From Acidobacteriota bacterium (lineage in GTDB: Bacteria; Acidobacteriota; Terriglobia; Acidiferrales; UBA7541), in assembly GCA_018268785.1 (NCBI GenBank), contig JAFDVY010000002.1, positions 62,001-126,000 of the forward strand: a stretch of 64,000 bases of DNA, read 5' to 3'. Position numbers and translations under genes: made by a program. The notes below the pieces were generated by a model, which saw nothing but the letters and a program-made list of their open reading frames with translations, searched no databases and was not told where the DNA came from. This document shows, one piece after another, positions 53,185-64,000 of the stretch. The first letter of the stretch is position 1; every line of letters starts with the position of its first letter.

Positions 53185-54672
53185 ATGAGTGGCAAAGTCT
53201 ACCGTTGGCTGATCGCTGCAGCATCCGTTGTTCTGGCCGTAGCCCTGGGAATTTTCCTTGGAAGGAGTTCGTCTGGTCATAAGGGTGAACGCGGAAGGGA
53301 AGGCGTCGAGCAACTTGTACTTTCGCCGAAAGCGCATCTGCCGAGCGAAGATGCACGCTGGACATTCGCACCGGATGTTCCCCTGCCCATCGGCCACCGG
53401 GAACAGCGCCGTGAAATCGTTCACTGGACCATTCGTGAGGCGCAAAGCGAAATTGCTCCCGGTGTGATTTATGACGACGCCTGGGGCTTTGAAGGGCGCG
53501 TTCCTGGGCCATTGCTTCGTGTTCGCGTGGGTGACCTTGTCGAGGTACATCTGCGAAATGCGCTCAACAGCCTGCGCACGCACAACATCGACTTTCACTT
53601 TGTCATGGGGCCGGGCGGCGGAGCAAGCGCATTGAGTGTCGCCCCAGGCGAAGAAGCTGTGTTGGAAGCTCGCGCGACTGCGCCGGGATTCTACATGTTT
53701 CACTGCGCGACACCGGATATTCCGATGCATATTGCAAACGGGATGTACGGGTTCGTTCTAGTCGAACCGGAAGAGGGGCTGCCTGCGGTTGGCAAAGAAC
53801 TCTACGTTGTTCAAAGCGAGATCTATACAACCGACGACAAACCAGGACACAAGTCGTTCGATATGGTCCGTGCAGACAAAGCCGACCCACAGTACGTCGT
53901 GTTTAACGGTTCGGTTGGAGCTCTGCTGAAGGACCAAGCGCCGATTGCCATGCAGAACGAGACCGTACGCATTTACGTCGGTAATGCGGGACCAAATCTC
54001 ATTTCTTCGTTCCATGTAATCGGTCAGATTTTCGACAAGGTGTACCGGGAAGGCGATCTGCTCTCGCCGCCAGCACGTAGTTTACAAACGACCCTGATTC
54101 CAGCAGGCGGTTCGGCTGTAGTTGAGTTCACTCCACCGGTTCCGGGAACTTTTCTTCTTGTAGACCATGCGATCTTCCGCCTGCACCACGGGGCAGCTGG
54201 CAGCATCAACGTGCAAGGACAGGAAAACGCGGAAGTTTTTGAACCCAAAACTCCGAGAAACATGGTGCCCATGAGCGAAGACGCGCATCTGGGCCACGGT
54301 TCACATGAGATGGTGACTCCCGCTCGAGCGCCATTCGAGTCCGGCGTGCACTTCGCGATGTCAGCGCCAGCGCCCGAGCTAAAGGCAACCAACGGCGTAA
54401 CGATCAAGATGTTGCCCGGTTCAGGAATTTGGAAGAAAGGCCCGATGCAAACATTTGGTCCAAAGACCGTGACGATCAAGGCAGGGCAATCGGTGATCTT
54501 TAAGAACGCAGACATCGGCATGGCGCACAGCGTGTTTGGCGAGAAAGGGGAATTTGCCTCACCGATGCTGGCACCGGGCGCCACGTATGAGAAGAGATTC
54601 GATCAGAAAGGTGTCGTGCACTTTCAGTGTGCACCACACCCGTGGATGAAGGGCACGATCATTGTGAAGTGA
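53185..54672 (+). CDS. nirK: Copper nitrite reductase with C-terminal cupredoxin domain
   Basis: Reduces nitrite to nitric oxide in the periplasm. The 495-aa protein has an N-terminal membrane anchor (WLIAAASVVLAVALGIFLG) and two cupredoxin domains with all CuNIR residues: type-1 copper His133, Cys174, His182, Met187; type-2 copper His138, His173, His328; catalytic Asp136 and His277. Residues about 400-495 are a third, plastocyanin-like domain with its own His448, Cys482, His485, Met488, a built-in electron donor. Ribosome site GGGAGG precedes ATG 53185. The palindrome upstream suggests control by the Crp/Fnr regulator of the cluster. A general multicopper oxidase is ruled out by the type-2 pattern. 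Confidence 0.92.
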   Translation: MSGKVYRWLIAAASVVLAVALGIFLGRSSSGHKGERGREGVEQLVLSPKAHLPSEDARWTFAPDVPLPIGHREQRREIVHWTIREAQSEIAPGVIYDDAWGFEGRVPGPLLRVRVGDLVEVHLRNALNSLRTHNIDFHFVMGPGGGASALSVAPGEEAVLEARATAPGFYMFHCATPDIPMHIANGMYGFVLVEPEEGLPAVGKELYVVQSEIYTTDDKPGHKSFDMVRADKADPQYVVFNGSVGALLKDQAPIAMQNETVRIYVGNAGPNLISSFHVIGQIFDKVYREGDLLSPPARSLQTTLIPAGGSAVVEFTPPVPGTFLLVDHAIFRLHHGAAGSINVQGQENAEVFEPKTPRNMVPMSEDAHLGHGSHEMVTPARAPFESGVHFAMSAPAPELKATNGVTIKMLPGSGIWKKGPMQTFGPKTVTIKAGQSVIFKNADIGMAHSVFGEKGEFASPMLAPGATYEKRFDQKGVVHFQCAPHPWMKGTIIVK

Positions 54673-54962: not shown

Positions 54963-56423
54963 GTGAAGACTGATTGCAATCGGAAAATGAATCACGGGAA
55001 GAATCATCCGGTCATCATCCAAGGCGGCATGGGCGCAGGTGTATCCAATTGGCGGCTCGCCCAAGCAGTCTCGCAACTCGGCCAACTCGGGGTCGTTTCG
55101 GGAACGGCTATCGACCAGATACTGGCGAGACGGTTGCAGGACGGTGATCCCGGCGGTCACATGCGGCGCGGCCTCGATCAGTTTCCGTTCCGCAAGATGG
55201 CCGACCGCATTTACGAAACGTACTACGTTCCCGGAGGCAAGGCCGAAACCCATCCATACAAGACCCTGCCGAAATATTCCAAGGACTGCCCGCGCGAACT
55301 CAACGAACTGTGTATTGTGGCCAACTTTGTCGAGGTGAATTTGGCGCGGCAAGGACACAGCAATCCGGTGGGCATCAACTATCTGGAGAAGATTCAGATT
55401 CCGCACTTGCCTTCGCTTTACGGCGCAATGCTGGCAGGTGTGGCGTACGTGATCATGGGTGCGGGTATTCCCCTGAAGATTCCGGGAGTGCTGGACCGCC
55501 TCGTCAATCACGGAGCGGTCAGCTACCAGTTGCAGGTCACTGGTGCGAAAGTTGGAGACGACACCACGATCAGGTTCGCGCCATGCGATTACATGGAGAG
55601 TTCATTTGCGCCACTGACGCGGCCGAATTTCTTTGCCGTCGTGGCCTCGAACACGCTGGCCGCAACCTTATCGAAAAAGGCGAATGGCCGGGTGGACGGA
55701 TTTGTGGTGGAGGGGCCCACCGCCGGCGGGCATAACGCGCCGCCGCGCGGGAAGCTGCAGATCAACGACGGTGGCGAACCAATTTACGGAGAACGCGATA
55801 CAGTCGACCTGCAAGAAATGCGAGAACTTGGTTTACCATTCTGGCTTGCTGGAGGCTACGGATCTGCCGAGAAACTCCGGTTGGCATTGGCCGCTGGAGG
55901 ATCTGGCGTGCAAGTGGGTACGGCATTTGCTTTCTGCGCAGAGTCAGGCTTGCAGGACAACTATAAGCAGGCACTTCTGAAGAAGGCGATTTCCGGGGAT
56001 GTGCGTCTTTTCACCGATCCCTTGGCTTCACCAACAGGTTTCCCCTTTAAGACGGTGCAACTGGAGGGTACCCTTTCGGAGAGGGAAATCTACCTCGACA
56101 GACCACGCATCTGCGATCTTGGCTATCTCCGGGAGGCATATCGGACCGCGACCGGTATGATTGACTATCGCTGTGCCGGAGAACCGGTGAGTGTGTATGT
56201 ATCGAAGGGAGGGCAGGAAGAGAGGACCATAGGCCGGAAATGTCTTTGTAACGCACTAGTTGCAAACATCGGACAACCCCAGGTCCGAGGTGGCAAATAC
56301 GTTGAGAAAGGTATGGTCACGGCGGGCGACGCTATCAGCCAAATCCAAGACTTTCTGCCGCCAAATAGTTTGAGTTATAGCGCCGCCGATGTAATCGCAA
56401 AGCTTCTGGAAGCTGAGTCTTAA
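54963..56423 (+). CDS. Nitronate monooxygenase-like FMN enzyme
   Basis: TIM-barrel flavoprotein of the 2-nitropropane dioxygenase family, 486 aa, clearly longer than the common about 350-aa members. Visible: IIQGGMGAGVSNWRLAQAVS at the N-terminus, VVEGPTAGGHNAP (FMN-phosphate region), LAGGYGSAEKLRLALAAGGSGVQVGTAF (in parts). GTG 54963 is used; ATG 54987 is an equal alternative. Its place between nirK and the NO-type regulator suggests a role in nitro-compound or reactive nitrogen removal, possibly with the ferredoxin, but this is inference. Enoyl-ACP reductase (FabK-like) is another possibility. Confidence 0.8.
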   Translation: MKTDCNRKMNHGKNHPVIIQGGMGAGVSNWRLAQAVSQLGQLGVVSGTAIDQILARRLQDGDPGGHMRRGLDQFPFRKMADRIYETYYVPGGKAETHPYKTLPKYSKDCPRELNELCIVANFVEVNLARQGHSNPVGINYLEKIQIPHLPSLYGAMLAGVAYVIMGAGIPLKIPGVLDRLVNHGAVSYQLQVTGAKVGDDTTIRFAPCDYMESSFAPLTRPNFFAVVASNTLAATLSKKANGRVDGFVVEGPTAGGHNAPPRGKLQINDGGEPIYGERDTVDLQEMRELGLPFWLAGGYGSAEKLRLALAAGGSGVQVGTAFAFCAESGLQDNYKQALLKKAISGDVRLFTDPLASPTGFPFKTVQLEGTLSEREIYLDRPRICDLGYLREAYRTATGMIDYRCAGEPVSVYVSKGGQEERTIGRKCLCNALVANIGQPQVRGGKYVEKGMVTAGDAISQIQDFLPPNSLSYSAADVIAKLLEAES

Positions 56424-56557: not shown

Positions 56558-57253
56558 ATGGCTAACGATACCGACGTCATCCTGAGGAAGACACCTCTAT
56601 TTGCCAATCTGACCGATGTCGAAATGCAGGCTCTCGCCACGCGTACGTCGCGAAAGCGATTTCAGAGGGATGAACAACTCTTTGCGGAAGGCGATCCTTG
56701 CTCTGGATTGTTTCTCGTGGCAACTGGCAAGGTCCGCATCTTCAAGCTCTCACCGTCCGGTCGTGAACAAATCCTAGCGGTCGAGGGCCCTGGCAGCTCG
56801 TTTGCTGAGCTTCCCGTTTTTGATGGCGGAAACTATCCGGCCGCAGCTTCTGCGCTCGAAGATACGGAAGTGCTGTTCATCTCGCGCAAAGACTTCCAGA
56901 ACTTTTGTCGCGAACATCCTGATGTCGGACTCAAGGTAATTGCAGTCGTAGGTTCACGATTGCGCCGGCTCGTGGGAATCATCGAAGAGCTGTCATTCAC
57001 CACAGTCCGGCAACGGTTAATTGCTTTGATCCTCCGGCTGGCACAGGCGAGTCACGCGCGGTCGAAAGAAGGAATTCACGTGGAGCTGACCAAGAGCCAT
57101 CAGGACCTGGCGGCGGAACTGGGAACTGTGCGGGAACTGGTTTCAAGGAATCTAGGTCGACTGCAGGCTGAAGGTTTCCTGGATGTTGAGGGCCGGCAGA
57201 TTATCGTGAAGGACTTGGCGGGTCTAAAACGCGAACAGGCCGCAGCCGAGTAA
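56558..57253 (+). CDS. Crp/Fnr-family transcriptional regulator (nitrogen-oxide type)
   Basis: A 231-aa regulator with an N-terminal cyclic-nucleotide-like beta-roll (about 10-125) and a C-terminal winged helix (about 165-220). The helix reads GTVRELVSRNLGRL; the E..SR residues match those of FNR that contact a TTGAT/TTGAC half-site. There is no N-terminal cysteine cluster, so it is not an FNR oxygen sensor but more like DNR/NnrR or HcpR types, which sense NO through haem. Two TGAC-N4-GTCA palindromes flank the cluster. Its own upstream region has no such site. Confidence 0.9.
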   Translation: MANDTDVILRKTPLFANLTDVEMQALATRTSRKRFQRDEQLFAEGDPCSGLFLVATGKVRIFKLSPSGREQILAVEGPGSSFAELPVFDGGNYPAAASALEDTEVLFISRKDFQNFCREHPDVGLKVIAVVGSRLRRLVGIIEELSFTTVRQRLIALILRLAQASHARSKEGIHVELTKSHQDLAAELGTVRELVSRNLGRLQAEGFLDVEGRQIIVKDLAGLKREQAAAE

Positions 57254-57295: not shown

Positions 57296-57345
57296 TGCGT
57301 GAATCTTGGGCTCCTACCACAATGGTCTCTGTCAGGAGGCCAGTG

Positions 57346-58068
57346 ATGAACTTCAACGCAGAAACACGAGTGAACGAAATCGCGCTGTCCGATCCGGGGG
57401 CAAGGCGAATTCTGGAAGACGCGGGTGTCGACTATTGCTGCGGGGGCGGCAAATCGCTCCACGACGCCTGCATGCGCGCCAACGTTCCTGCGGAGGTGAT
57501 CCTCGAACAGTTACGGAAAAACAGTAGAAAAGCCGAAACGGGGGAGAGCAGATGGAAACAAGCTCCGCTTGCCGAATTAACCGGCCACATCCGGGAGCGC
57601 CATCACGGCTACGTGCGTGACGTAATTCCCCGGTTGCGTGGGATGCTCGCCAAGGTGCGTGAAAAACACGGTACCAAGCACCGCGAGATCGAGGAGATCG
57701 AAAGGCTGTTCGGCGAAGTTGCCCGCGATATGCAGATGCACATGCAGAAGGAAGAACAGATTCTCTTTCCTTTTATTGATGCCTTGGAACGTGCGGCGAG
57801 CGGGCAAGGAGCGTTCGAGCCCCCCTTCTTTCAAACTGTGCGAAATCCGATCTATTCGATGATGAAGGAGCACGACGCCGCGGGAGAACTTGTGCGCCAG
57901 ATTCGCGCCGCAAGCAACACTTATCACGCACCAGAAGATGCATGCGCTACTTTTCAAGCGGCATACCAAGAATTAGAGCAGTTCGAAAAGGACCTGCACC
58001 TCCACGTGCATCTCGAAAACAACATTTTGTTTCCTCGCGCCGTGGAATTGGAGGCCGCGGCAGCCTGA
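57346..58068 (+). CDS. RIC/ScdA-YtfE-type di-iron protein (iron-sulfur repair)
   Basis: Repairs iron-sulfur clusters after nitric oxide or oxidative damage. The 240-aa protein has an N-terminal ScdA domain (ILEDAGVDYCCGGGKSLHDAC, with Cys31, Cys32 and Cys42) and a hemerythrin-like four-helix domain with HIRERHHGYV, HMQKEEQILFPF, MMKEHDAAGE and HLENNILFPRA as the iron ligands. ATG 57346 is preferred for its AGGAGG site; 57322 is in frame upstream. It sits under a TGAC palindrome, as expected for an NO-induced gene. Confidence 0.92.
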   Translation: MNFNAETRVNEIALSDPGARRILEDAGVDYCCGGGKSLHDACMRANVPAEVILEQLRKNSRKAETGESRWKQAPLAELTGHIRERHHGYVRDVIPRLRGMLAKVREKHGTKHREIEEIERLFGEVARDMQMHMQKEEQILFPFIDALERAASGQGAFEPPFFQTVRNPIYSMMKEHDAAGELVRQIRAASNTYHAPEDACATFQAAYQELEQFEKDLHLHVHLENNILFPRAVELEAAAA

Positions 58069-58081
58069 CGCGGACGAAGCG

Positions 58082-59431
58082 ATGGCGACGGCTCTTCCCC
58101 ATCCAGAAAGTTCAAGAGCGGCGCACTTTGAAGTCTTGCGCTCTCGTGATGAGGGGTTCGCGAAGTTATTGATGGCGTTCATTTCCACTGGGCTTGTATT
58201 CATGGTGTTCCCAGGGACCTTTCTCGGCGTTTGGAATTTGCTGCAAATCAGCGGGAGAGAAAGCGTGGCTTCGATTTCTCCCGCCTGGATACAGGCTCAC
58301 GGGCACGCGCAAGTGTTCGGCTGGGTGGGCAGCTTCATCATGGGCATCGGATTTTTCTCGATTCCGCAGTTGCGCGCCGGAGTGAAGGCATCTTTCGGCA
58401 GGGCGTGGACCTGCTGGGCCATGTGGTCGGCAGGTGCCGCACTGCGCTGGGTTACAAATGTGTACCGATGGGAGTGGAGAGTGATGCTGCCGGTGTCCGC
58501 GGTTCTTGAACTGGCAGCGTTTTTGATCTTTTTCCGTTCCGTGTCGCAGCACCAGCGGCAAGAATCGGGCCAAAAGCAATTAGAACCGTGGATCTGGGTG
58601 GTGATCAGTGCGAGCATTGGATTCCTGCTGCTCTTGATCCTTAATTTGGCGGGTTGTTTCTATGTTGCATTTCGAGAGACTACGCCTGCGTTTACCCATG
58701 TTTTCGATCAGCGCTACTTGACACTAATGGCCTGGGGATTCTTGGTGCCGTTCGTTTGGGGCTTCAGTGCAAAATGGATGGGAGTATTTCTCGGGCTGAA
58801 GCCCGTTCGCTCAAGAATTCTTCTCTCCGCGGTCTTTGTGAACTTAACCGGCATTGCGTTGGCACTCGCGGGGGTGGTTTCCGTTGGAGTGTGGTTTTTT
58901 CTTGGAGCTTCCGCTCTGGCGATCGCAGCGTTGCGCATGTTTGAACCTGCGATCAACGAGCCAAAGACGCGCGGCGTGCATCGAAGTTTTCCTTTCTTCA
59001 TTCGTTTTGCCTACGTGTGGCTGGTGGTCGCTGCGGGACTGGGCGTCGCGGCAGTGCGCTGGGACCACTCCGGCGGGATTTGGGGCGCATCGCGCCACGC
59101 ACTGACGGTTGGCTTTATTTCGGTGATGATCGTCTCGGTGGGCCAGCGGATTCTCCCTGCGTTTGCGGGAATGCGCGTGTTGTGGAAACCACGATTGATG
59201 TTCACGGCCCTCCTATTACTTACCGTCGGCTGCACTCTGCGAGTAGGTTGTGAAGTTCTGGCCTATCAAGAGTATGTTCACAGCGCATGGCGGGTTCTAC
59301 CGCTCTCGGCGCTGATTGAGCTTGCCGGACTCACCGCTTTTGCTTTCAATCTAGCTGGAACGTTCGTTCTGCAGCCGTCGCACGCGGTGAACGAACCAAT
59401 GATCGCGAGAATTTCCGGAGTGAATGTCTGA
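58082..59431 (+). CDS. NnrS-like haem/copper membrane protein
   Basis: Polytopic membrane protein (449 aa, about 12 segments) resembling NnrS, which protects against nitric oxide. Visible are histidine-rich helix ends such as WIQAHGHAQVFGWVGSFIMGIGFF, a pattern found in NnrS-type proteins. It follows the RIC gene by 13 bases and shares its likely transcript. It is not a NO reductase: the six conserved His of NorB are not seen. No NO reductase gene is in this window. Confidence 0.78.
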   Translation: MATALPHPESSRAAHFEVLRSRDEGFAKLLMAFISTGLVFMVFPGTFLGVWNLLQISGRESVASISPAWIQAHGHAQVFGWVGSFIMGIGFFSIPQLRAGVKASFGRAWTCWAMWSAGAALRWVTNVYRWEWRVMLPVSAVLELAAFLIFFRSVSQHQRQESGQKQLEPWIWVVISASIGFLLLLILNLAGCFYVAFRETTPAFTHVFDQRYLTLMAWGFLVPFVWGFSAKWMGVFLGLKPVRSRILLSAVFVNLTGIALALAGVVSVGVWFFLGASALAIAALRMFEPAINEPKTRGVHRSFPFFIRFAYVWLVVAAGLGVAAVRWDHSGGIWGASRHALTVGFISVMIVSVGQRILPAFAGMRVLWKPRLMFTALLLLTVGCTLRVGCEVLAYQEYVHSAWRVLPLSALIELAGLTAFAFNLAGTFVLQPSHAVNEPMIARISGVNV

Positions 59432-59791: not shown

Positions 59792-62012
59792 GTGACTTCC
59801 TCTTCCTCAGGCCCGACTCGCCAGCTGATTCTAGGCACCTTGTCGTTTGCCATTTGTTTCGCTGCATGGGGTTTGATCAGCGCGTTCGCTCCGCGTTTCC
59901 GGGAACTGTTCCATCTGACGGCCACCGAGACGGCACTGCTGGTCGCCGTTCCCGTTCTGCTCGGCGCACTTCTGCGCGTTGCGACCGGCATGCTCGCCGA
60001 TCGTTTTGGCGGCCGGGTGGTATTCGCGGCGCTGATGGTCGCCGTTGCTGTTCCCGCGTACATCGTGCCGCTGGTTTCGAGCTATCAGAAGCTGCTGGTG
60101 GTTGCATTTTTTCTCGGTATCGCTGGCAGCTCTTTTGCGGTCGGAGTGGGTTTCGTCTCGCGCTGGTTCCCACCGGAGAAGCAAGGCGGAGCGCTCGGCA
60201 TCTATGGCCTGGGAAACATCGGCCAGTCCGCGGCTGTTTTTCTCGGCCCACTCCTTGCCGCCGTAGTAGGGTGGCAGAACATTTTTCGCGGAATGGCAGC
60301 GCTGCTGATTTTGTGGGGCTTGACGTTTTACCTTCTGGCACGGAATTCACCGAAGACGGTTCGTCCAGCAGGTTTTGGATCGATGCTGCAATTACTCTCC
60401 CGCGAAAGACTGTCCTGGGTGTTGTCGTTATTCTATTTCTTGACCTTTGGCGGATTTGTCGCTTTCTCTATTTACCTTCCTGTCTTGCTCAAAGATGAGT
60501 TCGGATTGAAACCAGCGGACGCGGGATTCCGCACTGCGGGCTTTGTCGTGCTAGCGACGCTTGCTCGCCCGCTTGGTGGCTGGCTCGCGGACAAAATCGG
60601 CGGCGCGCGTGTCCTCCATGGGGTTTTCCTGGGTGTGATTCCGTTTGCGCTCCTGATGTCGTGGCCGGCAATGTTACCGTTCACGATTGGGGCACTCGGC
60701 TGCGCGTTCTTGCTTGGTAGCGGAAATGGTGCTGTCTTCAAGCTGGTCCCGCAGTATTTCCCGAAAGAAGTCGGCACCGTAACGGGACTGGTAGGCGCAA
60801 TGGGCGGCCTCGGCGGATTTTTTCCGCCGCTCTTGCTTGGTTTTTTCCGTGATCGTTTCCACATTGTGTGGCCGGGTTTCGCTCTGCTCGCGCTCGTCTC
60901 GGCCGCTCTTTCGCGGATGAACAATCGCGTGTTCCTCTCGCGGCAGGAAACTGCGGAATTCGCGCTTCCCGCCGCTCTCGCGCGCACCGCGGATCGCATC
61001 CGCGCAGGCGTGACGGCCACGTTTTTCACTGGATTGCTCGTAGCCGCGATCGTCGTGGGCTCCCGCAATTTGCAGAATTTCGACGCGGCACTGGTGATTT
61101 ACACGTTCGCCACGGTTTTCGCCACGTGGGGCGTGGTCTACCACTATCGCGTATGGATCGGCAAACCTCCCACCCGCGTCTACTGGAAACGCGGATGGCA
61201 ACTTTTTCGCGCGGCCGGAATCTTCCGGGGAACTCTTCAGCTCTTGAAGAACGCCGCGACGCACATTGCCGCGCAAACTTTTATTCGCAGGCGCTCTACT
61301 CTGCGCTGGTGGATGCACCAAATGCTTTTTTGGGGTTGCCTGCTGGGCGTTGCCATCACGTTCCCGCTCGTCTTTGGCTGGATTTCGTTTCAGACTTTAC
61401 CCAGTGATCAGGAAACGTACGTCATCCTTATATATGGCTTCCCGGCACAGACCTTCCGTCTGCACACATTGTTGGCGGAGCTGATTTTTCACGGCTTGGA
61501 TATTTCAGCGATGCTCGTCCTCGGCGGCATTGGCCTTTCTCTGTGGCGGCGCTTCCGCGACCGCGGTGCGCAAGCGGTGCAGTCGTTCGCGCTGGATTTT
61601 TTGCCCATCATCATGCTCTTCGCGATTTCAATAACCGGACTGGCTTTAACCGTTTCGCAAAACTGGCTGCGTGGCGAATTTTACAGTTTTCTCGCGATAC
61701 TTCATGCAATCACCGTCATTGCCGCTCTTCTCTATCTGCCATTCGGAAAGTTCTTCCACATCTTTCAGCGGCCGGCTCAGCTCGGCGTGAAGTTCTACCA
61801 AGCCGCTGGCGCAGCGAGCGAGCCTGCGCTCTGCAAGCGCTGCGGCGAGCGGTTTGCTTCGCGGATGCACATTGACGATTTGAAGCGAGTCCTGCCGCAA
61901 GTAGGTTTCAACTACCAACTCGAAGGAACCGAGGACATCTGGCAAGAGTTGTGCCCGGCGTGCAAACGTAAGTCACTATCGCTTGCGCAGCTTCGCCTGA
62001 AGGAGGAAATCC

Positions 62013-62020
<8 letters not shown>
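59792..62020 (+). CDS. NarK-type nitrate/nitrite transporter fused to a cytochrome b-like and zinc-ribbon domain
   Basis: A 742-aa fusion starting at GTG 59792 (AGGAG ten bases ahead). Residues 1 to about 385 are a 12-helix MFS transporter of the NarK/NNP type (GMLADRFGGRVVF, then GNGAVFKLVPQYFPKEVGTVTGLVGAMGGLGGFFPP in parts). Residues about 410-665 form a second membrane domain resembling NarI/cytochrome b subunits, with histidines in WWMHQML, FRLHTLLAELIFHGLD, LAILHAITV and FGKFFHIFQ that could bind haem. Residues 679-742 are a zinc ribbon (Cys681, Cys684, Cys721, Cys724). It overlaps the nitrate reductase start by eight bases. It may couple nitrate import to quinol oxidation. Confidence 0.8.

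Positions 62021-64000
<1,980 letters not shown>

Follow-up and report, generated by a model that had tools for sequence, protein, structure and literature searches.

How could a bacterium supply a reductase of the assimilatory NasA type with electrons from the membrane, and why would it build the nitrate importer into the same polypeptide as the electron-delivering subunit? These questions are raised by a locus at the end of a 64,000-nucleotide stretch of an Acidobacteriota bacterium genome (contig JAFDVY010000002.1; hereafter the window), where a single frame joins a NarK-type transporter of the major facilitator superfamily (MFS), a cytochrome b-like domain and a four-cysteine (Cys4) ribbon next to a NasA/NasC-type molybdopterin enzyme (Table 1). 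Our analysis suggests, with a probability of roughly 0.62, that these genes specify a membrane-bound quinol:nitrate oxidoreductase that is built on a NasA-clade enzyme, follows a NarGHI-like logic and has its importer fused to the cytochrome in one clade. A sequence-only reading of the window had already described one frame carrying a NarK transporter, a NarI-like membrane domain and a four-cysteine ribbon, and overlapping the catalytic gene by eight bases. Domain models and conserved residues agreed with this layout, and the fusion frame shared 8 bases with the next gene, which starts at 62013.

The three-part fusion in one polypeptide was confirmed by comparison with relatives. A chance open frame was ruled out by a mean column identity of 72% over the full length of 22 fusions, and full-length copies were present in two congeners, one 86% and the other 79% identical. 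The cytochrome was found in 38 of 399 genomes in a class-wide search, mostly in frames of 736–820 amino acids, and in 59 of 396 genomes in a phylum-wide search; the 89 loci classified, some of which stand for one genome represented twice, comprised 46 fused and 43 split arrangements. The sequence-only reading had called for a check for assembly error and for a search for the same architecture in other Acidobacteriota, and the congeners and the 46 fused loci provided both. Split relatives in which the two genes are adjacent do exist, as would be expected if a sequencing or assembly error had joined them here, but the fusion was uninterrupted in these congeners and in dozens of other genomes from many assemblies, all in one clade, which excludes such an artefact and leaves it next to no probability.

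The fused cytochromes formed one clade (Shimodaira–Hasegawa-like approximate likelihood ratio test support 100) and therefore a single fusion event suffices to explain them. This clade reached the Obscuribacterales (Melainabacteria) and one Planctomycetota bin, and it included one member (L061:4353-6572) whose frame is broken by a stop codon close to where the cytochrome b part begins, through either a sequencing error or a true re-splitting.

The N-terminal domain was matched by TIGR00886 over residues 10–342 with an E value of 2.8e-72 and a score of 243.8 bits, below the curated cut-off of 311.7. Residues R89, F147, N175, Y263, F267 and R305 of Escherichia coli NarK correspond, in this order, to the nitrate-site residues R62 to R259 listed in Table 1, and all E. 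coli positions compared were kept except S411. The substrate-binding arginine pair (the equivalents of R89 and R305) was thus accompanied by the nitrate signature residues, as in NarK proteins.

The NarI likeness of the second domain was supported as well, within a broader family. The QmoC and TcuB models matched 41 of 42 relatives, while PF02665, the Pfam family of NarI, matched 23 of the 42. The four histidines of the domain were conserved across the 42 relatives (H567 nearly so), and H638 and H656 aligned at equal spacing with the HX17H pair of NarI, H187 and H205. A predicted structure (mean predicted local distance difference test score 86) contained six membrane helices, and the fold matches of highest probability were NarI (0.99) and EtfD (0.98), with modest template modelling (TM) scores. 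Matches to G-protein-coupled receptors, formally ranked first in that search, had TM-scores of ~0.2 and were dropped as helix-bundle noise. These comparisons support placing the cytochrome in the quinone-interacting haem-b branch that includes QmoC, TcuB, TmcC, DsrM and NarI, closest to QmoC and TcuB; the domain would then bind haem and take its electrons from quinol. Members of this branch likewise have a haem-b membrane domain that passes electrons between quinone and a soluble protein; unlike QmoC and TcuB, however, the cytochrome studied here has no iron–sulfur (FeS) domain, and it adds a C-terminal ribbon and, in one clade, an N-terminal NarK.

The ribbon followed the pattern CxRC-x36-CPxC (C681-x2-C684-x36-C721-x2-C724), was conserved in relatives, and aligned with the C-terminal cysteine quartet of HycF, CxxC-x34-CPxC (hhalign P 4.7e-5). 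The HycF model matched 9 of 42 members, and a profile search of PDB sequences returned weak matches only, among them HycF at E 0.95. In the structure of formate hydrogenlyase, a metal ion is bound by the HycF quartet, next to HycB and near the FdhF interface, and this site has been suggested to regulate the attachment of FdhF (PMC9474812). Because FdhF is related to NasA, and HycB is a ferredoxin with four clusters, the four-cluster FeS protein (FES) and the catalytic subunit (NAS) encoded downstream could credibly dock at the ribbon. Docking, which the sequence-only reading had also proposed, is thereby well motivated on the strength of this likeness, although it stays an analogy. The HycF quartet is carried by a two-cluster ferredoxin, the ribbon by a haem-b membrane protein. 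The ribbon presumably binds a metal, and its position after six helices that follow a 12-helix NarK domain with a cytoplasmic C terminus would place it in the cytoplasm.

The operon continued beyond the window end, where the NasA-type gene was followed by genes for the FeS protein, a Rieske protein and the small membrane protein DUF6755. The earlier description of the layout as a fusion plus NasA was therefore right in its parts and too small as a whole, because the module comprised five genes when fused and six when NarK was separate. The catalytic subunit scored higher with the NasC model than with the NarG, NapA or formate dehydrogenase models, at 786 bits against an equivalog cut-off of 1100; the NarG model TIGR01580 (cut-off 1084) gave ~54 bits on the in-window part of the gene and 30 bits when the genome was scanned. 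The module enzymes listed carried the molybdenum-ligand motif RLCM (RLCMVSAG), and all module enzymes formed one clade, whose nearest row was a NirB-linked NasC-type enzyme. The FeS protein had 16 cysteines in four cluster motifs, with DmsB as its best model. The Rieske boxes (CTHxxC...CPCH), the disulfide cysteines and an RR motif before the membrane helix were near-invariant in the 69 rows compared, and the best models were QcrA, PetC and AioB, each below its own cut-off. The RR motif, which resembles that of twin-arginine translocation (Tat) substrates, and the disulfide cysteines suggest that the Rieske domain probably lies on the positive side (p-side) of the membrane; the positive-inside rule gave an ambiguous result for its anchor, with flanks of 0 and +2.4.

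The module occurred in Acidobacteriota, Planctomycetota, Chloroflexota (Herpetosiphon), Armatimonadota, Myxococcota, Cyanobacteriota and Deinococcota (plasmids of Deinococcus), and all four partners of the cytochrome were present in 55 of the 60 loci whose contig reached far enough. Split versions were spread over these seven phyla, with importer and cytochrome still unjoined in most of them, indicating that the fusion is dispensable for the system. Split relatives carried the transporter gene at the operon end just before that of the cytochrome b (CYB), or in the permuted order FES-Rieske-DUF6755-NarK-CYB-NAS. Two split cytochromes b from Deinococcus (L186:8914-10026 and L187:8914-10026) contain no MFS domain and are publicly annotated as 'MFS transporter', a label apparently transferred from fused relatives. 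Genes of the FmdE family, possibly molybdenum-related, adjoined the same Deinococcus modules (L186:17643-18242, L187:6616-7206).

In the split loci with enough flank (n=30), the transporter slot held NarK in 11, a SLAC1-family anion channel in 12 and neither in seven, and the two never occurred together. The SLAC1 genes lay in or near the NarK position (L084, L085, L086, L093, L097, L098, L105, L111, L114, L116 and L183), and the cytochrome tree required at least six switches between the two families. A Fisher test that ignored relatedness gave P 6e-4 for NarK versus SLAC1, while a phylogenetic sign test was not significant, there being too few well-supported independent pairs. The recurrence of an anion transporter argues that an anion is reduced inside the cell.

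In the mechanism that we propose, quinol would be oxidized by the dihaem NarI/QmoC-like cytochrome b, from which electrons would pass to the cytoplasmic face of the membrane. There the four-cluster FeS protein would dock at the ribbon, as HycB and FdhF do near HycF, and relay them to the catalytic subunit, whose [4Fe-4S] cluster and molybdenum centre would carry out cytoplasmic nitrate reduction. Nitrate would enter through the NarK domain, which may also export nitrite. In the fused clade, uptake and electron entry would share one polypeptide, which would keep them close together and in a fixed ratio. Nitrate is the likely substrate and respiration the likely use. Several points weigh against this proposal, the support for which comes from sequence. 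PF02665 matched the window protein alone only weakly (E 0.0054, under the Pfam cut-off), the alignment of the domain with NarI was short, and the fold search gave no match to the cytochrome domain reaching E 0.001. One NarI haem-ligand position is shifted to another helix, at H567, so the haem arrangement is itself conjectural. A bc1-type Rieske subunit that probably faces the periplasm has no place in a simple NarGHI-like chain. The window genome carries NirB, and a NirB gene follows the module in G081, so nitrite may feed assimilation. Finally, a report on Bradyrhizobium (PMC4724949) describes NarK and nitric oxide (NO) detoxification in an operon with an assimilatory NasC, and NO-response neighbours are thus no proof of respiration.

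The last two points, together with a catalytic subunit of the NasA/NasC group, would suit an assimilatory nitrate reductase fed from the quinone pool, in which NarK and the NO-defence genes serve nitrogen assimilation. However, NirB adjoined the module in G081 only among the loci checked and was absent from the window operon, and several holders of the module kept a separate NirB-linked NasA, suggesting that the module does something else. No NIR_SIR-family nitrite or sulfite reductase was detected in G206, G338 or G339, and G339, a 100% complete genome with a split module, had neither NirB over cut-off nor an NrfA match. Moreover, narG adjoined the module in four loci (L069, L070, L071 and L183), the last in the order CYB module, SLAC1, narI, a NarJ-like gene, narH and narG. 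These narG neighbours, the gene content of G339 and the recurrent NO-response genes beside the module (RIC/YtfE and NnrS, found with Crp/Fnr, Rrf2 and hemerythrin genes) speak for respiration or nitrite production rather than assimilation, and we regard the assimilatory reading as unlikely. In the window genome the module enzyme was the only NasA-type enzyme at the threshold used, and neither NarG nor NapA was found over cut-off, so that here it may serve both needs. The idea of the sequence-only reading that a NasA-type enzyme receives respiratory electrons without NarGHI gains from the narG neighbours, the respiratory function itself being putative; its second half holds for the window genome, but 8 of 35 module holders also carried NarG.

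The Rieske protein invites two further explanations. It could carry the catalytic and FeS subunits out through the Tat pathway, yielding a periplasmic pNar-like enzyme supplied by Rieske and cytochrome b as proposed for haloarchaea, and the near-invariant RR motif, the bc1-type disulfide cysteines and the QcrA/PetC/AioB likeness speak for it. Yet no Tat signal or other signal peptide was seen on the catalytic subunit and none on the FeS subunit; a periplasmic enzyme would need neither NarK nor SLAC1, one of which accompanied the module in 23 of the 30 split loci, NarK being part of the fusion in the fused clade; and an even number of helices after a NarK domain that ends in the cytoplasm should turn the ribbon inwards, all of which makes export improbable. 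More speculative, and in our view rather doubtful, is the idea that the module adds a third type to the respiratory nitrate reductases. The dihaem cytochrome b and a Rieske protein on the p-side would together oxidize quinol in a bc1-like manner, so that nitrate reduction itself translocates charge, and nitrate/nitrite exchange would be physically coupled to it through the fused NarK. The Rieske protein may have a part in oxidizing quinol at the outer side of the membrane, or it may work with a different donor. As the catalytic subunit scored under the curated NasC cut-off, its family leaves the substrate unfixed, and the enzyme might act on another anion, such as a chlorine oxyanion, or in the nitrite-oxidizing direction, with NarK or SLAC1 moving that anion; the conserved nitrate residues of NarK and the NO and nitrite stress genes nearby render this very improbable. 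A quinol:nitrate oxidoreductase with a cytoplasmic active site remains our preferred reading.

Upstream of the fusion, the window held three of the recurrent neighbours and a copper nitrite reductase (Table 1), of a type rare among module holders (any match in 4 of 35, over cut-off in 2 of 35). Between these genes lay a nitronate monooxygenase/FabK-like frame of 486 amino acids (54963-56423); L075 and L110 also have very close homologues of it near their modules.

Table 1. Features of the module and its upstream flank, in window positions; genes past the window end were placed on the same scale
Feature	Position	Strand	Remarks
NarK-cytochrome b-Cys4 ribbon fusion	59792..62020	+	742 amino acids, GTG start; architecture repeated in relatives
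NarK-type MFS domain	59792..60931	+	residues 1-380; nitrate-site R62, F115, N142, Y215, F219, R259
NarI/QmoC-like cytochrome b domain	60944..61786	+	residues ~385-665, six predicted membrane helices; H509, H567, H638, H656
Cys4 ribbon	61823..61975	+	residues 678-728; C681, C684, C721, C724; resembles HycF C-terminal metal site
NasA/NasC-type molybdopterin catalytic subunit	62013..64000	+	744 amino acids; gene ends ~247 bases beyond window end
Four-cluster FeS protein	64247-64843 (past window)		read in L032
Rieske protein	64818-65324 (past window)		read in L032; one membrane helix
DUF6755 small membrane protein (Pfam)	65326-65568 (past window)		read in L032
NnrS-family protein (NO response)	58082..59431	+	recurrent neighbour
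RIC/YtfE di-iron iron-sulfur repair protein	57322..58068	+	recurrent neighbour
Crp/Fnr-family regulator	56558..57253	+	recurrent neighbour
NirK-type copper nitrite reductase	53185..54672	+	TIGR02376 over cut-off; C-terminal plastocyanin/amicyanin-like cupredoxin domain in the same frame

Compared with NarGHI and NarK, the module would show the same order of functions, from a nitrate carrier through a haem-b quinol-oxidizing subunit and a four-cluster FeS protein to a cytoplasmic enzyme with a molybdenum bis(molybdopterin guanine dinucleotide) cofactor. In contrast to that system, its catalytic subunit belongs to the NasA/NasC clade and not to NarG, its FeS protein is DmsB/HycB-like and not NarH, its cytochrome is nearer to QmoC/TcuB and bears a Cys4 ribbon, NarJ is absent, a Rieske protein and DUF6755 are added, and NarK is fused to the cytochrome. 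With the assimilatory NasA/NasC reductases the enzyme shares the catalytic family and the molybdenum-cysteine motif, but it forms a separate clade under the NasC cut-off, is not NirB-linked as a rule and comes with partners of its own, namely a membrane cytochrome, an FeS protein and a Rieske protein. Formate hydrogenlyase offers a parallel in HycB-HycF-FdhF, where a HycB-like ferredoxin and a molybdenum enzyme resembling NasA are close to a similar cysteine quartet. The haloarchaeal Nar gene cluster includes a Rieske protein and a cytochrome b, as the module does, whereas the haloarchaeal reductase is NarG-type and outward-facing. The component families are known, while no description of the module, the fusion or the combination was found in the full text of open-access papers, subscription journals lying outside this scope; the sequence-only reading, which knew of no described protein with this layout, is in line with this.

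If our reading is correct, a type of quinol-linked nitrate reductase has been hidden in annotation under the names 'MFS transporter' and 'molybdopterin oxidoreductase', and soil Acidobacteriota that are scored as carrying only assimilatory nasA may actually respire nitrate. DUF6755 and a family of Rieske proteins would gain a context, and the NarK-cytochrome fusion, together with the exchange of NarK for SLAC1, would make the coupling of nitrate uptake to nitrate reduction testable.
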